From contig NZ_CP022303.1 in assembly GCF_004216475.1 (NCBI RefSeq), positions 3,720,001 through 3,784,000 of the forward strand: a stretch of 64,000 nucleotides of DNA, read 5' to 3'. Under the pieces are notes generated by a model, which was not told the origin of the DNA, made no database searches, and was given only the letters and a program-made list of their open reading frames with translations. Shown piece by piece: positions 44,212 through 48,904 of this stretch. The DNA comes from Thalassococcus sp. S3 (lineage in GTDB: Bacteria; Pseudomonadota; Alphaproteobacteria; Rhodobacterales; Rhodobacteraceae). Position 1 is the stretch's first letter. Every line of letters starts with the position of its first letter. The position numbers were made by a program, and so were the translations under genes.

Positions 44212-44724
44212 ATGAAGCTTGGTGATGGAGTGGAACAGGCGATCCATGCCGTTGCGGTGCTGGCGAGTTTACCGCCGGGCAGTCTGCTCTCGGCGGCGGC
44301 TCTGGCGGAGTTCCATGGCGTATCGCAAAGCTATCTCCTGAAACATATGCAGGCGCTCTCCAAGGCGGGGCTTGTCGAAACGATGCCGGGTCCGAAAGGC
44401 GGTTACCGCCTCGCCCTGGCGCCGGACAGAATTTCCCTGCTCGACGTCGTTCTCGCAGTCGAAGGGCCCGAGCCGGCCTTCCGCTGCAAGGAAATTCGCC
44501 AGAAGGGCCCGGACCCTCTGCCGGCGCATCGCTATGCAAAGCCGTGCCAGATCAACGTCGCCATGCTGCGCGCCGAACGCGCTTACCGCGCAGAATTGCG
44601 CGCCGTGACCATCGGGCAACTCATGGCCCAGGTGGCCGCCGACGACACCGACGGCGCGCTTGCCGCGCGCGGATGCAAATTCTTCGAACCGCATTTGCGC
44701 CAGACACCATCAAACGAGAACTGA
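44212..44724 (+). CDS. Rrf2-family transcriptional regulator
   Basis: GGGGAGAG precedes the ATG; 170 residues. The winged HTH (GVEQAIHAVAVLASLPPGSLLSAAALAEFHGVSQSYLLKHMQALSKAGLVETMPGPKGGYRLA) is typical. Three cysteines, Cys92 (RCKEI), Cys112 (PCQIN) and Cys155 (RGCKF), are more widely spaced than in IscR or NsrR, but could bind an Fe-S cluster or act as redox switches. It is 12 bp upstream of an AhpD-like gene, which suggests control of an oxidative response. Confidence 0.9.
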   Translation: MKLGDGVEQAIHAVAVLASLPPGSLLSAAALAEFHGVSQSYLLKHMQALSKAGLVETMPGPKGGYRLALAPDRISLLDVVLAVEGPEPAFRCKEIRQKGPDPLPAHRYAKPCQINVAMLRAERAYRAELRAVTIGQLMAQVAADDTDGALAARGCKFFEPHLRQTPSNEN

Positions 44725-44736
44725 AAGGACCTGCCC

Positions 44737-45192
44737 ATGCACCCCCGTCTTGACTACATGACCGCGGCGCCCGACGCCTTCCAGGCGGTTCTGGCCCTTG
44801 AGACCTATGTCGCCGGAAAATCCGGCCTTGATGCGCGCCTGATCGACCTTGTCAAACTCCGCGCCTCGCAGATCAACGGCTGTGCCTTTTGCGTCGATAT
44901 GCACACGAAGGAAGCAAAAGCCCATGGTGCCGATCCGCAATGGATCAACCTGGTTTGTGTCTGGCGCGAAGCAGGCGTCTTCAGCGCGCGCGAGCGGGCC
45001 GCCCTGGCCTGGACCGAAGCGGTCACCAATGTCCGCGACACCGGCGTGCCGGATCAGGACTTTGAGGCAATCGGCGCGCATTTCAGTGATGCGGAGATTG
45101 TAAAACTGACCGTAGCAATCGGCACAATCAACCTGTGGAACAGGCTGGCTGTCAGTTTCCGTACGCCCCATCCGGTTGATGAGGCCGCGTGA
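44737..45192 (+). CDS. Carboxymuconolactone decarboxylase family / AhpD-like protein
   Basis: A 151-residue CMD-family protein (MHPRLDYMTAAPDAFQAVLALETYVAGKSGLD) with the AhpD-type redox site KLRASQINGCAFCVDMHTKEAKAHG, that is CxxC plus a nearby His, so it is likely an alkylhydroperoxidase and not a true decarboxylase. It pairs with the upstream Rrf2 regulator in one short operon. Confidence 0.92.
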   Translation: MHPRLDYMTAAPDAFQAVLALETYVAGKSGLDARLIDLVKLRASQINGCAFCVDMHTKEAKAHGADPQWINLVCVWREAGVFSARERAALAWTEAVTNVRDTGVPDQDFEAIGAHFSDAEIVKLTVAIGTINLWNRLAVSFRTPHPVDEAA

Positions 45193-45259: not shown

Positions 45260-45289
45260 GGAATAACCCCACCCCTGCAGGCGTAGTCC
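45260..45289 (+). promoter_or_regulatory. ECF-type promoter for the Asp-rich peptide gene
   Basis: GGAATAA (45260-45266), 15 bp, then CGTAGTCC (45282-45289). This matches the elements at 47158-47187 and 48876-48904 around the nearby ECF sigma gene. The -10 lies 48 bp before the ATG at 45338. Confidence 0.6.
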
Positions 45290-45337
45290 TTTCGAGAGCA
45301 GCCCAGCGCTGTTCAGTTCAGCGAAAGGAAAACGACG

Positions 45338-45634
45338 ATGAAGCTCCCAATATTCGTCCTGACCGGAAGTCTGGCTGTCACCCTCATGTCGCCGCCAGCC
45401 TTCGCAAACGATGTCCGCGATGCGATCCGGCTCTTCAACGATGTCTTCAACGCGCAGCCAACCCGCCGGGTTCGGATATGTGAGGATGACGACGACGATG
45501 GTGGCCGGTGCTATTACGTGCGGCCGGGCCGGACCATCTATCTTGATGATGACGACGACGACCACGGGCGGCGTTGGCGCCGATACGATGACGACGATGA
45601 TGATGGGGGCCGTTGGGACGACGATGACGACTAA
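45338..45634 (+). CDS. Secreted Asp-rich small protein
   Basis: A 98-residue protein with a signal peptide (MKLPIFVLTGSLAVTLMSPPAFAND) and AAAGGAAAA upstream. The mature part of about 74 residues has four or more Asp tracts (CEDDDDDGGRC, YLDDDDDDHGRR, RYDDDDDDGGRW, final WDDDDD) with interleaved Arg and Trp, and two cysteines bracketing the first tract. It resembles no enzyme; a Ca2+ or other cation-binding envelope peptide is a reasonable guess. The DNA is a repeat-like GAT/GAC run. An ECF-type promoter precedes it. Confidence 0.78.
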   Translation: MKLPIFVLTGSLAVTLMSPPAFANDVRDAIRLFNDVFNAQPTRRVRICEDDDDDGGRCYYVRPGRTIYLDDDDDDHGRRWRRYDDDDDDGGRWDDDDD

Positions 45635-45660
45635 CGGCAAACGTCAATCAGACAGCCGAA

Positions 45661-45691
45661 GGGCCCGCATCACGGATGTCGGGCCCTTTTT
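45661..45691 (+). terminator. Rho-independent terminator after the Asp-rich gene
   Basis: GGGCCCG and CGGGCCC (7-bp perfect arms, 12-base loop) are followed by TTTTT at 45687-45691. It ends the plus-strand transcript just before the convergent HTTM gene end. Confidence 0.9.
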
Positions 45692-45698
45692 CGTTCGT

Positions 45699-47129
45699 TC
45701 AGACACTGTCGGGCAGAGTGTGGCCTTGCAGCGGCAATCGCGGATAGTCGACAGGCATCGCGCCCCGCGGCGCGCGCAACTGGTTGGGCAAGACCCACGA
45801 ATTGGGCCGCGCCCATTCCCATTTCACAGCGGTCAGGTCCTGTTCGGGGTCTGTGAATTGCTGCATCGCACGCCCGTTCAGGGACTTGCGGACATCGGCA
45901 TAGACCGCGACATCGGGATATCCGCGCTCGGCCCAGGCCTGTTCAAGCTGTCGGGCAAAGTCGTAGATGATATCGGGCCGGCCCAGCACGTTGCGGGCCT
46001 GTCGAAAGCTCATCACCTGATAGGGGTCAACGGTCCAGGTTTCGCTGCCATCTGCGGCGACGATCCGAAACGTGCCTTCGCTCTGCCGGTCATAGATCCT
46101 CATGCGCCACGAAAACCGGTGGCCATCTCCGGTCCAGCCCACCATGTTGTCAAAGAATACCTGCCGCTGAGGCACGGCGACCTGAACGGCGAACCAGACC
46201 CCCAGCGCCAGCAGAGCGACGGGCATCAGCCGAAACCGCGCTTTAGGCAGCGCAGGCATCGGCGGCAGCGTTTCAAACCGGCACAGCGCCCCGCGCAACA
46301 GCCGTTGCGGCCAATCCGGCGCGAAAAAGATCGTCGTGAGGGCGAGCGTAATCCACGGAAAGATACCGATGTTGAACAATTGTGCATTGGACCAGTGGAA
46401 CACTGCATAAATCAGAAACACGGCCATCCGGGTCCGATGCCAAAGCAGAAGGGGCGCGCCCACGACATGCAAAAGGATCACACCCCAGGCCGCCACGACA
46501 AAGGCCAGATCATACTGAAAGAGAAACCCGAAGAAGACGTCGTCTTCACGTCCCGCCAACCACGAGCGCAGCGGCTCTCCGCGAAGCCAGTCATCGGTGA
46601 TCTTTACGATGCCGGCATAGACGAGGATGATTTCAAGCTGCAGCTTCAGCGCGGTCACAGGCCAGCGGGGGATCACCAGGCTGCGGATTCGCGGCCAAAG
46701 CCAGGCATCCACGGAAAAGGCGCTGTGCGCAGGCATGAATGCCAACAGTACGCCGAACAGGATCACCATATAGTTGTGGTTGAGATACTGGGTCCGGTCC
46801 AGAAGGAAGAAATACGCGAAGATCCCGGTCAGCGCAACGATGGAGACGCGATAGAACGCGCCCAAAGCGACAAGCAGGCCAAAAAGACCGACGCCGCCCC
46901 AAATGATATGGATCCAGGGCTCCGGCGCGGGTTGGACGAAACTCCAGAACGGAAAGTTAAAGTCGGGTTCGACATAGTACCGGGCAATGCGGTCATAGCG
47001 GACATATCGCCACCAGTCCCACGCCAGGATAAGCCCAAAGGCAATCCGAACCACGACAAGGGATTGAATGCTCACGGGCTCTTCAAGCGCGCGATGCAGA
47101 CGGCTCAGCATTTGGGGTTTCGATGTCAC
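45699..47129 (-). CDS. HTTM-domain membrane protein (vitamin K-dependent carboxylase-like)
   Basis: I choose the GTG at 47129 (VTSKPQMLSRLHRALEEP), with AGGAGG 5 bases ahead; the ATG at 47189 lies upstream of the predicted -10 box. The 476-residue protein has about eight membrane helices in the first 300 residues. HTTM features are VSIQSLVVVRIAFGLILAWDWWRYVRYDRIARYYVEPDFNFPFW and AVFLIYAVFHWSNAQLFNIGIFPWITL. The C-terminal 170 residues (GDGHRFSWRMRIYDRQ) are soluble. HTTM proteins share the membrane core of gamma-glutamyl carboxylase; bacterial roles are unproven. It is divergent from a DCC oxidoreductase. Confidence 0.88.
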   Translation of the reverse strand: MTSKPQMLSRLHRALEEPVSIQSLVVVRIAFGLILAWDWWRYVRYDRIARYYVEPDFNFPFWSFVQPAPEPWIHIIWGGVGLFGLLVALGAFYRVSIVALTGIFAYFFLLDRTQYLNHNYMVILFGVLLAFMPAHSAFSVDAWLWPRIRSLVIPRWPVTALKLQLEIILVYAGIVKITDDWLRGEPLRSWLAGREDDVFFGFLFQYDLAFVVAAWGVILLHVVGAPLLLWHRTRMAVFLIYAVFHWSNAQLFNIGIFPWITLALTTIFFAPDWPQRLLRGALCRFETLPPMPALPKARFRLMPVALLALGVWFAVQVAVPQRQVFFDNMVGWTGDGHRFSWRMRIYDRQSEGTFRIVAADGSETWTVDPYQVMSFRQARNVLGRPDIIYDFARQLEQAWAERGYPDVAVYADVRKSLNGRAMQQFTDPEQDLTAVKWEWARPNSWVLPNQLRAPRGAMPVDYPRLPLQGHTLPDSV

Positions 47130-47157
47130 ATCACCCTCCTGTGCGAATGATTTGTCG

Positions 47158-47187
47158 GGAATACGCAGTGGCGGCGCTACGTATTCC
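47158..47187. promoter_or_regulatory. Symmetrical bidirectional ECF-type promoter between HTTM and DCC genes
   Basis: GGAATACG (47158-47165) and CGTATTCC (47180-47187) are a perfect inverted repeat around 14 bp. Read on either strand it gives GGAATAC, 15 bp, CGTATTCC, matching the sites at 45260 and 48876. The starts are 28 bp (HTTM, GTG) and 60 bp (DCC, ATG) downstream of the two -10 elements. Confidence 0.6.
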
Positions 47188-47247
47188 ATTCAATCGCAAG
47201 GCATTTGGCAAAGCGGCGCCCAAGGGATCCACAAGGCGAGGAGAGAC

Positions 47248-47625
47248 ATGACCGAGCCCACGCGCATTATCTACGACGGCGAATGCCCCTTTTGTGCGCG
47301 CTATGTCCGCATGGTCCGTCTGCGCGATGCCGTAGGCCAAGTGGAGTTGATCGACGCGCGCTCCCACCATCCGATCATCAGCCAGATCGCAGACGCTGGT
47401 CTAAATCTGGATGATGGAATGGTTGTCGTGATGGATGGCAAATTGCATCACGGCGATGCGGCGATGACGGCCCTGGCGGTGATGACGACGCGCAGCGGTC
47501 TTTTTAATCGGCTGATGCGGGCGATGTTCGCTAATCCCCGGCTCGCCCGCGTCCTTTATCCTCCGCTTGTTGCAGGCCGTGCCATCGTTCTACGCTTGCT
47601 GGGGCGCCGCAAAATCAACGGTTAA
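47248..47625 (+). CDS. DCC-family thiol-disulfide oxidoreductase
   Basis: AGGAGAG precedes the ATG at 47248; 125 residues. The DCC (YuxK/DUF393) signature is IIYDGECPFCARYVRMVRLRD with the redox pair Cys13/Cys16, followed by VELIDARSHHPI and VVVMDGKLHHGDAAMTALAVMT. It is predicted to be a thioredoxin-fold reductase. DCC genes are often found next to HTTM genes. The end overlaps the convergent anti-sigma gene by 11 bp. Confidence 0.93.
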   Translation: MTEPTRIIYDGECPFCARYVRMVRLRDAVGQVELIDARSHHPIISQIADAGLNLDDGMVVVMDGKLHHGDAAMTALAVMTTRSGLFNRLMRAMFANPRLARVLYPPLVAGRAIVLRLLGRRKING

Positions 47626-48304
47626 GCTCGGCAAGCCGCGCGGCCTCTTCCGCTTCCGAAAGCACGGCACCTGCCCCGGTGCTTTGCATCCATGCTTCCA
47701 GCGCGTCGAAGGCGCTTGCCGGAACAAAATCATCATTCCCAGGTAATTCGGTCGCGGCGGCAAATCTCAATTCCCAAGTGGCATTGCTTTGGCATCCGAC
47801 GCCAACCAGATCGCTGCGTTGGGGCAAACGCAGCTCAAACTCCCGGCAGAACGCGCCACCCGGCCCAGTGAAAGAGGCAATCATGGTGACCTCGCCATCG
47901 CCCAGGGCGGAATTGGACCCCGACGGGACGGTATTCAGAACCGGCGCAAGCGATGCCATATCGAAGGTGTTTTGCGGCATCTCGCCGGGCCCCAGCAAGA
48001 CACCTCCCAACAAAACACCCAGCGCCAGACTTGCGGCGATTGTCCCGCCTAGCAGCGGCCAGCGCGGGCGTTGCGCTGGCGACGGGACATGGTCTTTGAG
48101 CGTCATCTCGACCCGGTCGCTCAACTCGGCGGGCACGGCCTCAAGCGGCATCGCATCCTGGGCCAATCCAGCAGTTTTGCGGAACAGATCCAGCCTCTCT
48201 CGCAAGGCCGGGTCATCCAGAACCGCAGCAGCGACCCTTGCCCGGTCCGCCTCCGCCAATTCGTTGTCGGCATATGCCATAAGCTCTTCATCCGAGACCG
48301 TCAT
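47615..48304 (-). CDS. Anti-sigma factor, single-pass membrane protein
   Basis: A 229-residue protein with an N-terminal anti-sigma domain (MTVSDEELMAYADNELAEADRARVAAAVLDDPALRERLDLFRKTAGLAQDAM), one membrane helix (LLGGTIAASLALGVLLGGVLLG, about residues 86-107) and a periplasmic domain of about 115 residues (FTGPGGAFCREFELRL, VGVGCQSNATWELRFAAATELPG) with two cysteines. It lacks the His-Cys-Cys zinc motif. It overlaps the sigma gene by 4 bp and should hold that sigma at the membrane until an envelope signal arrives. Confidence 0.88.
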   Translation of the reverse strand: MTVSDEELMAYADNELAEADRARVAAAVLDDPALRERLDLFRKTAGLAQDAMPLEAVPAELSDRVEMTLKDHVPSPAQRPRWPLLGGTIAASLALGVLLGGVLLGPGEMPQNTFDMASLAPVLNTVPSGSNSALGDGEVTMIASFTGPGGAFCREFELRLPQRSDLVGVGCQSNATWELRFAAATELPGNDDFVPASAFDALEAWMQSTGAGAVLSEAEEAARLAELNR

Positions 48305-48849
48305 CGCGAGGAAGTCTCCGTTTTGTTTGTCGGCTGGCCGGAATACGCCCGCGATCCCCGATCTATTCCCATCGCCTCAGCCAAGGCGATCCTGGCCCGT
48401 GCCAGACGTGACATCACAGTGCCGATCGCAACCTCCAACACCTCCGCGGCCTCGCGGTAGCTGAGGCCCTCGACACAGACAAGGATCAGGACATCGCGTT
48501 GCGGATCGGGCAATCGCTGGATGGCTTCAAGTGTCTGTCGCACTTCCATCTGCAGCTCTGCGCTGGCGGCGCTATCGGAGTGCGCACCGATTTCCGTATC
48601 CTCTGCCGTCAGCATTTCGCCCCTCACCTTCCGTCTGCGCGTCTCGTCGATCCACGCGTTTCGCAGAATGCGAAGCAGCCAGGGCGCAAGGCTTTGCCGA
48701 GGGTCGAACTGCGCCCTTTGCCGCAGCGCTTTTTCGACCGTAAGTTGCACGAGATCATCCGCCACATCGGGCCTGCGTGCGAGCGACATGGCATAGCGGC
48801 GCAGGTTTGGCAGAAGCTCCACGATGTTACGAGAAAAAGGATCCGTCAT
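48301..48849 (-). CDS. ECF RNA polymerase sigma factor
   Basis: The ATG at 48849 (MTDPFSRNIVELLPNLRRYA) gives 182 residues. Region 2 (NLRRYAMSLARRPDVADDLVQLTVEKALRQRAQFDPRQSLAPWLLRILRNAWIDETRRRK) and region 4 (EAIQRLPDPQRDVLILVCVEGLSYREAAEVLEVAIGTVMSRLARARIALAEAM) are complete. It is coupled to the anti-sigma gene by a 4-bp overlap and divergent from a subtilase. Three nearby intergenic regions share an ECF-type promoter pattern, the likely target of this sigma. Confidence 0.94.
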   Translation of the reverse strand: MTDPFSRNIVELLPNLRRYAMSLARRPDVADDLVQLTVEKALRQRAQFDPRQSLAPWLLRILRNAWIDETRRRKVRGEMLTAEDTEIGAHSDSAASAELQMEVRQTLEAIQRLPDPQRDVLILVCVEGLSYREAAEVLEVAIGTVMSRLARARIALAEAMGIDRGSRAYSGQPTNKTETSSR

Positions 48850-48875
48850 GAAAAACCCGAGGCGACCGAGACTTT

Positions 48876-48904
48876 GGAATAAGGGCGCGCGTCGCCCGTA
48901 GTCT
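48876..48904 (+). promoter_or_regulatory. ECF-type promoter for the subtilase gene
   Basis: GGAATAA (48876-48882), 14 bp, then CGTAGTCT (48897-48904), 25 bp before the ATG at 48930. The same pattern, with 1 bp more spacing, occurs at 45260 and 47158. Confidence 0.6.

Follow-up and report, generated by a model that had tools for sequence, protein, structure and literature searches.

A predicted ECF26 sigma factor regulon that includes a bacterial gamma-carboxylase (VKGC) homologue and small Asp-rich peptides

The 64-kb stretch of DNA analysed here (the window, G000:C1:3720001-3784000, from the 5.0-Mb genome of Thalassococcus sp. S3) carries between 45.2 and 50.2 kb a cluster of genes encoding a small Asp-rich peptide, a homologue of the gamma-carboxylase VKGC, a DCC1-like thiol-disulfide oxidoreductase, an extracytoplasmic function (ECF) sigma factor with its anti-sigma factor, and an S8 subtilase, interspersed with short promoter-like sites (Table 1). 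Among named relatives, an uncultured Tateyamaria (L007) is the closest that was found. A previous, sequence-only reading of the window had described the VKGC homologue as a carboxylase-like HTTM protein; the HTTM domain is there, and the description is refined by the additional presence of the VKGC lumenal domain (Pfam PF05090, E 1.6e-76, and PF22777, E 1.6e-34). The Asp-rich peptide has no match in Pfam and NCBIfam searches and has a counterpart in Tateyamaria at 44.7% (tblastn). The subtilase carries an Asp-rich stretch behind a signal-like start. The anti-sigma factor has an NCBIfam match of 44 bits, which is below the cut-off of 100, and a hydrophobic stretch judged by eye.

Table 1. Genes and predicted promoter sites of the cluster, in window coordinates (aa, amino acids; ORF, open reading frame).
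Feature	Position	Strand	Basis
Predicted ECF26 promoter of Asp-rich peptide, GGAATA-N16-CGTAGTCC	45260..45289	+	Exact match; counterparts in Tateyamaria (L007) and other relatives
Asp-rich peptide, 98 aa, DDDDD at C-terminal end	45338..45634	+	ORF; signal-peptide-like start judged by eye
VKGC homologue, 476 aa, HTTM domain and VKGC lumenal domain	45699..47129	-	GTG start chosen by inspection
Palindromic site, predicted divergent ECF26 promoter of VKGC (minus) and DCC (plus)	47158..47187	.	Matches both strands
DCC1-like thiol-disulfide oxidoreductase, 125 aa	47248..47625	+	PF04134, E 6.3e-11
Anti-sigma factor, 229 aa	47615..48304	-	Position and synteny with sigma; sub-cutoff NCBIfam anti-sigma match
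ECF sigma factor, 182 aa, RpoE6-like (ECF26)	48301..48849	-	Sigma70_r2 and r4_2 domains
Predicted ECF26 promoter of anti-sigma, within 3' end of sigma gene	48340..48369	-	Motif scan; rare-codon test
Predicted ECF26 promoter of S8 subtilase, GGAATA-N15-CGTAGTCT	48876..48904	+	Exact match; counterparts in 9/9 close relatives, this genome counted
S8 subtilase, 436 aa	48930..50240	+	PF00082, E 1e-34; divergent from sigma gene

The sequence-only reading had proposed that one ECF-type promoter pattern recurs at three places, 25-60 bp before gene starts (ahead of the Asp-rich peptide, between HTTM and DCC, and ahead of the subtilase), with the sigma and anti-sigma genes between the sites. All three sites are exact matches at the given coordinates and the pair does lie between them (48849-47615, minus strand). 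Counted from where the CGTA core ends, the gene starts lie 29 bp (S8), 32 bp (VKGC, GTG start at 47129), 39 bp (anti-sigma), 52 bp (Asp-rich peptide) and 64 bp (DCC) away, close to the proposed range. The pattern GGAATAMN{13,16}CGTAKTCY matches the window at three places only, one of them on both strands, and has no match in 100 dinucleotide shuffles of the window. Three features go beyond the earlier proposal: the middle site is a palindrome that matches both strands, a further site precedes the anti-sigma gene, and five of the six matches to GGAATAN{13,17}CGTAKTC in the whole genome fall within this 3.7 kb, with none for the reversed-pattern control. The sixth genomic match (L006, 17-bp spacer) lies within a reading frame, judged by eye.

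The sigma factor is 49% identical to the product of the pSymA gene rpoE6 of Sinorhizobium meliloti and is the best of the eight matches of RpoE6 in this genome, the reverse best match having been checked against plasmids only. The S8 subtilase is 45% identical to the SMa0142 ORF, the protease that the published SMa0142 promoter precedes, and the anti-sigma factor is homologous to EcfR6 at 34%. In the report on RpoE6 (PMC6180224), divergence from the serine protease SMa0142 is described as widely conserved among ECF26 sigmas, the RpoE6 consensus is given as -35 GGAATA and -10 GT, SMa0146, SMa0148 and the protease gene are expressed in an RpoE6-dependent manner, overexpression of RpoE6 activates the protease, the anti-sigma and neighbouring genes, and a likely RpoE6-dependent promoter of the anti-sigma gene is placed within rpoE6. 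The target sites of the window show this same -35 and -10, and the same scan of pSymA (L165) yields sites at the published promoters of SMa0142, ecfR6 and SMa0148; the Asn/Ser-repeat ORF that follows the anti-sigma gene there is taken, from its position, to be SMa0146. The ECF26 label used here rests on the kinship to RpoE6, the divergent protease and the promoter consensus. Because the protease, the GGAATA promoters and a likely internal anti-sigma promoter of this S. meliloti system are already published, the core of the locus is of a known kind, and the earlier view of the regulon as undescribed is not supported for the regulon as a whole. Its extension to VKGC, DCC and the Asp-rich peptide was not found in the literature searched, an absence that is weak evidence because only open-licence literature was covered.

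The pattern is sparse in the family, with any match in 62/149 genomes of a draw. A close set comprises nine genomes (this one counted) whose sigma is at least about 49% identical. Here sites with a score of 9 or more out of 10 lie upstream of the S8 gene in 9/9, of the anti-sigma gene in 9/9 and of VKGC in all seven genomes that bear it, as well as upstream of 6/6 small peptides (five Asp-rich, one Asn/Ser-rich). A random 130-bp segment of these loci has a chance of 0.014 of containing a site with such a score; the scored regions were chosen by us from gene positions and measure 78-265 bp. In Tateyamaria the sites are kept at all five positions, and in two genomes added later the S8 and anti-sigma sites score 10 and 9 (G342) and 9 and 8 (G366). 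Autoregulation of the sigma gene in the close clade was rejected, since a site precedes the sigma gene itself in only 1/9. Further afield, the bearers of the sigma, anti-sigma and S8 gene arrangement include Caulobacter, Hellea and a Gemmatimonadaceae bin. Across 12 distant divergons, the spacing of GGAA and CGT peaks at 18, in 6/12 toward S8 and 8/12 toward sigma (9/12 once a spacing of 17 is counted), versus at most 3/12 in 2000 shuffles in two-base blocks; these 12 include close kin (L011 with L013, L010 with L014) and leave aside L017, L087 and L088, in which no S8 gene was found, and L085, in which it is not divergent.

A later set consisted of eight plasmid loci from named bacteria, four of them Paracoccus, picked from the sigma and S8 match lists rather than by motif and fetched after the scan had been fixed. 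The S8 site is present in 7/8 and the anti-sigma site in 7/8. The core of the cluster is carried by Paracoccus denitrificans PD1222 (sigma PDEN_RS22705, S8 PDEN_RS27890). The plasmid of Paracoccus albus SCSIO 80058, the sole locus of this set with VKGC, has the VKGC/DCC site, as predicted, and next after DCC, again as predicted, a gene for an Asp-rich peptide with its own site, annotated as a hypothetical protein. On two Paracoccus plasmids (L169:3668-5495 and L176:4652-6457), the anti-sigma gene is followed by genes encoding an SLC13 family permease and a glycerate kinase that are also preceded by sites, and an annotated calcium-binding protein is next in line.

VKGC occurs in 14/394 genomes of the family, this one counted, and Tateyamaria makes 15, of which 11 have the S8 gene. 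All 11 VKGC genomes with the S8 gene contain an intergenic VKGC/DCC site whose score reaches 9 or more in one direction, versus 0/4 of those without the S8 gene (Fisher 0.0007), a split that was chosen after the data had been seen; splitting instead by a sigma of at least 49% identity gives 9/9 versus 2/6 (p 0.011). G286, without S8 and without the site, has the closest VKGC to that of the window among the 394 genomes, this one aside (72%). In G118 the S8 gene is found only as several fragments lying apart on a short contig (L164:5312-7385), and an ORF for a different ECF-like sigma, identified by eye, lies directly downstream of VKGC (L078:8766-9311).

The anti-sigma site overlaps the coding sequence of the sigma gene. 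The 12 sigma genes compared contain 100 Ile codons, of which 13 are ATA. Eleven of the ATA codons belong to the -35 (GGA-ATA) near the 3' end, and the remaining 89 Ile codons hold two ATA. The ATA is thus kept at the anti-sigma -35 in 11/12 sigma genes, the twelfth (G366) having GGA-ATG, and nine other window genes have seven ATA among 159 Ile codons. This use of an otherwise rare codon indicates that coding does not account for the anti-sigma site.

The sequence-only reading had placed the middle site between HTTM and DCC, where it is indeed present; it matches both strands and is divergent, not a DCC-only element. Positions 47158-47187 form the palindrome GGAATACG...CGTATTCC and therefore point at VKGC on the minus strand as well as at DCC on the plus strand. 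Both directions score at least 9 of 10 in 7/11 genomes, one direction scores at least 9 and the other 8 in 3/11, and the site is one-way in 1/11. The palindromic site probably works in both directions. Palindromic matches in two other loci were rejected as regulon members, one (L079) lying inside a 1489-aa reading frame, helicase-like by eye, and the other, a perfect GGAATACGG...CCGTATTCC palindrome in G009 (L081:9355-9385), preceding a gene for a large membrane protein unrelated to the cluster.

Taken together, we consider it highly probable from the sequence evidence that the locus forms a self-contained regulon of the ECF26 (RpoE6) type, whose S8, Asp-rich peptide, VKGC, DCC and anti-sigma genes would be expressed through GGAATA-N15/16-CGT(A/T) sites. 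That these sites are promoters, and that the local sigma reads them, are predictions; the conservation of the pattern upstream of orthologues, and its co-occurrence with the sigma system, largely bear out the link to the local sigma that the sequence-only reading had drawn. By analogy with the family, the anti-sigma would release the sigma in response to an envelope signal, and sigma-holoenzyme would transcribe the S8 subtilase and the Asp-rich peptide. VKGC or DCC would be transcribed from the one symmetric element in either direction, by one polymerase at a time, and transcription of the anti-sigma from the internal site would provide negative feedback. Such a regulon most likely serves, with its protease, to produce or maintain acidic secreted proteins that bind calcium.

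Several observations weigh against this interpretation. The short pattern GGAATAN{14,16}CGTA is not enriched in the genome (14 matches versus 13 for the reversed control), so that the weight rests on local clustering and conservation. Among the plasmid loci, L170 has no S8 site reaching 9 and L174 no anti-sigma site reaching 9, and G132 lacks a site toward DCC. G380 has the VKGC/DCC site and no sigma was found in it; an assembly gap is suspected, and the sigma may lie in it because the peptide contig ends 272 bp past the peptide gene and the S8 contig 138 bp past S8. G385 also has the site, and its sigma match reaches only 45% and lies elsewhere in the genome, with none beside S8; next to this sigma are a very long ORF, by eye a subtilase with RTX repeats, and an RTX-repeat protein (L152:1398-7247). 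Lastly, this genome encodes a second RpoE6-like sigma (G000:C1:4265891-4266370, 118 bits to RpoE6) and crosstalk is possible.

This last point leads to the strongest alternative, in which the main reader of the sites, as ECF promoters, is a paralogous sigma with similar specificity, for example that at G000:C1:4265891, and the local sigma is one input among several. Such overlap has precedents, as the group-26 sigmas of S. meliloti cross-activate each other's targets (PMC6180224) and three of the four activate one ECF26 promoter (PMC10880074). We nevertheless regard a main role of the paralogue as distinctly unlikely, since the sites are found together with the local sigma/S8 unit and are absent at the four VKGC loci without S8 and a close sigma, even though three of these four genomes have other ECF matches. 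Instead of a two-way promoter, the palindrome could be an operator to which a dimeric transcription factor binds, given that operators are typically inverted repeats and that a similar palindrome precedes the unrelated gene in L081. This is very improbable: the arms of the palindrome are exact -35 and -10 elements with a 15-16 bp spacer, elements that are found singly before S8, the anti-sigma and the Asp-rich peptides, in 3/11 genomes the site is symmetric only up to single bases that leave it readable as a promoter, and in 1/11 it is one-directional. An origin of the sites by chance or as a coding-sequence artefact, to which the frequency of the short pattern and the overlap of the anti-sigma site with coding sequence might point, is scarcely credible in the face of the match-free shuffles, a background of 0.014 versus near-complete conservation, the ATA codon test and the later plasmid loci.

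A large regulon in this genome was rejected, the nine short-pattern sites outside the cluster mostly overlapping reading frames. Seven of the nine overlap reading frames of at least 90 aa; one lies 123 bp before a 459-aa ORF and overlaps a 95-aa ORF on the opposite strand, and one, overlapping a 215-aa ORF on the opposite strand, stands 33 bp upstream of a 489-aa ORF with RTX repeats. The last of these sites (G000:C1:4312876; L103, L133) reads GGAATA-N14-CGTAATC, and the ORF that it precedes is rich in RTX calcium-binding repeats (PF00353); it is possible that this ORF is a distant member of the regulon, with acidic calcium-binding proteins as the common theme. Adjoining the cluster, at window positions 44212-45192, are a gene for an Rrf2-family regulator and then one of the carboxymuconolactone-decarboxylase family, without the motif.

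The locus ties a bacterial gamma-carboxylase homologue to a predicted signal-responsive regulon. To our knowledge, no physiological substrate has been assigned to the bacterial homologues of human gamma-carboxylase, and the naming of the small Asp-rich peptides as candidates makes the substrate question directly testable. Residues 10-450 of the window VKGC are homologous to human gamma-carboxylase structures (PDB 9wfn, 9bvk and others; E 3.7e-41). In the alignment, human H160 and K218 correspond to H118 and K176 of the window protein, the human numbering having been counted by hand. These human residues, which we take to be catalytically important, have their counterparts kept in 15/15 bacterial VKGC sequences, the four without the regulon counted. 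Small Asp-rich peptides with a signal-like start are present in 9/11 VKGC genomes with the regulon (eight by one filter, that of G366 by reading); none was found near VKGC or S8 in G118 and G132, in the 4 VKGC genomes without S8 (0/4), or in the fetched stretches of 18 sigma loci without VKGC (0/18; 16 with S8), where the single low-complexity match is the Asn/Ser-rich peptide of S. meliloti. For L008-L016, VKGC was checked in the fetched stretch only, which for L008 and L010 is just 5-7 kb. Pfam searches with eight small peptides (seven Asp-rich or similar) gave EF-hand matches below the cut-off for that of L150, two unconvincing sub-cutoff matches (TrbC, Striatin) and none for five; since the L150 peptide alone gave EF-hand matches, the EF-hands of the L117, L118 and L175 peptides are judged by eye only.

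This distribution suggests that the Asp-rich peptide may be a substrate of the VKGC homologue; a strict dependence is made less likely by the four VKGC genes that have no peptide of this kind close by. A bolder model, which we offer tentatively and hold to be rather doubtful, is that VKGC with DCC carboxylates Asp (and Glu) residues of the small secreted peptides and of the Asp-rich leader of S8, which would trim them, so that strongly calcium-binding surface peptides are made on demand in a sigma-controlled counterpart of the vitamin-K pathway; in the S. meliloti branch a parallel product would be made from the Asn/Ser-rich peptide with a DUF6065 protein. A DUF6065 protein with its own site is encoded near an Asn/Ser-repeat secreted-type peptide both in G292 (L121:3642-4352) and on pSymA (L165:10961-11674), and the two may constitute a second peptide-enzyme pair. 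G292 has both, an Asp-rich peptide beside DCC/VKGC and an Asn/Ser-rich peptide beside the DUF6065 protein as in S. meliloti.

Unlike human gamma-carboxylase, the window VKGC has 476 aa rather than 758, a Val at the position of K217 and a nearby candidate substrate that is Asp-rich, not Glu-rich. The predicted two-way site resembles the bidirectional Sigma70 promoters of Escherichia coli, described in PMC12825309 as pseudo-symmetrical DNA to which the polymerase binds in two orientations, and differs from them in that an ECF -35 on one strand is paired with the -10 on the opposite strand; that paper uses neither the word ECF nor the term alternative sigma, and no symmetric ECF promoter of this kind appears among the literature matches listed, open-licence titles and abstract openings. 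The predicted anti-sigma promoter in the sigma coding region is like the internal rshA promoter of Corynebacterium glutamicum, which according to PMC3489674 lies within sigH, is SigH-dependent and drives the anti-sigma gene alone; SigH belongs to another sigma family, and the promoter of the window is a prediction from sequence only. The closest likeness is to the S. meliloti RpoE6/EcfR6 (ECF26) locus (PMC6180224). No VKGC, DCC or small Asp-rich peptide is found in the 20 kb examined there, the peptide is Asn/Ser-rich and the other neighbour is the DUF6065 protein. As in the window, a sigma gene and downstream anti-sigma gene are divergent from an S8 serine protease gene, GGAATA sites lie before the protease gene and within the sigma gene before that of the anti-sigma, the protease has an Asp run after its start, and a gene for a secreted-type low-complexity peptide with its own site adjoins the anti-sigma gene.

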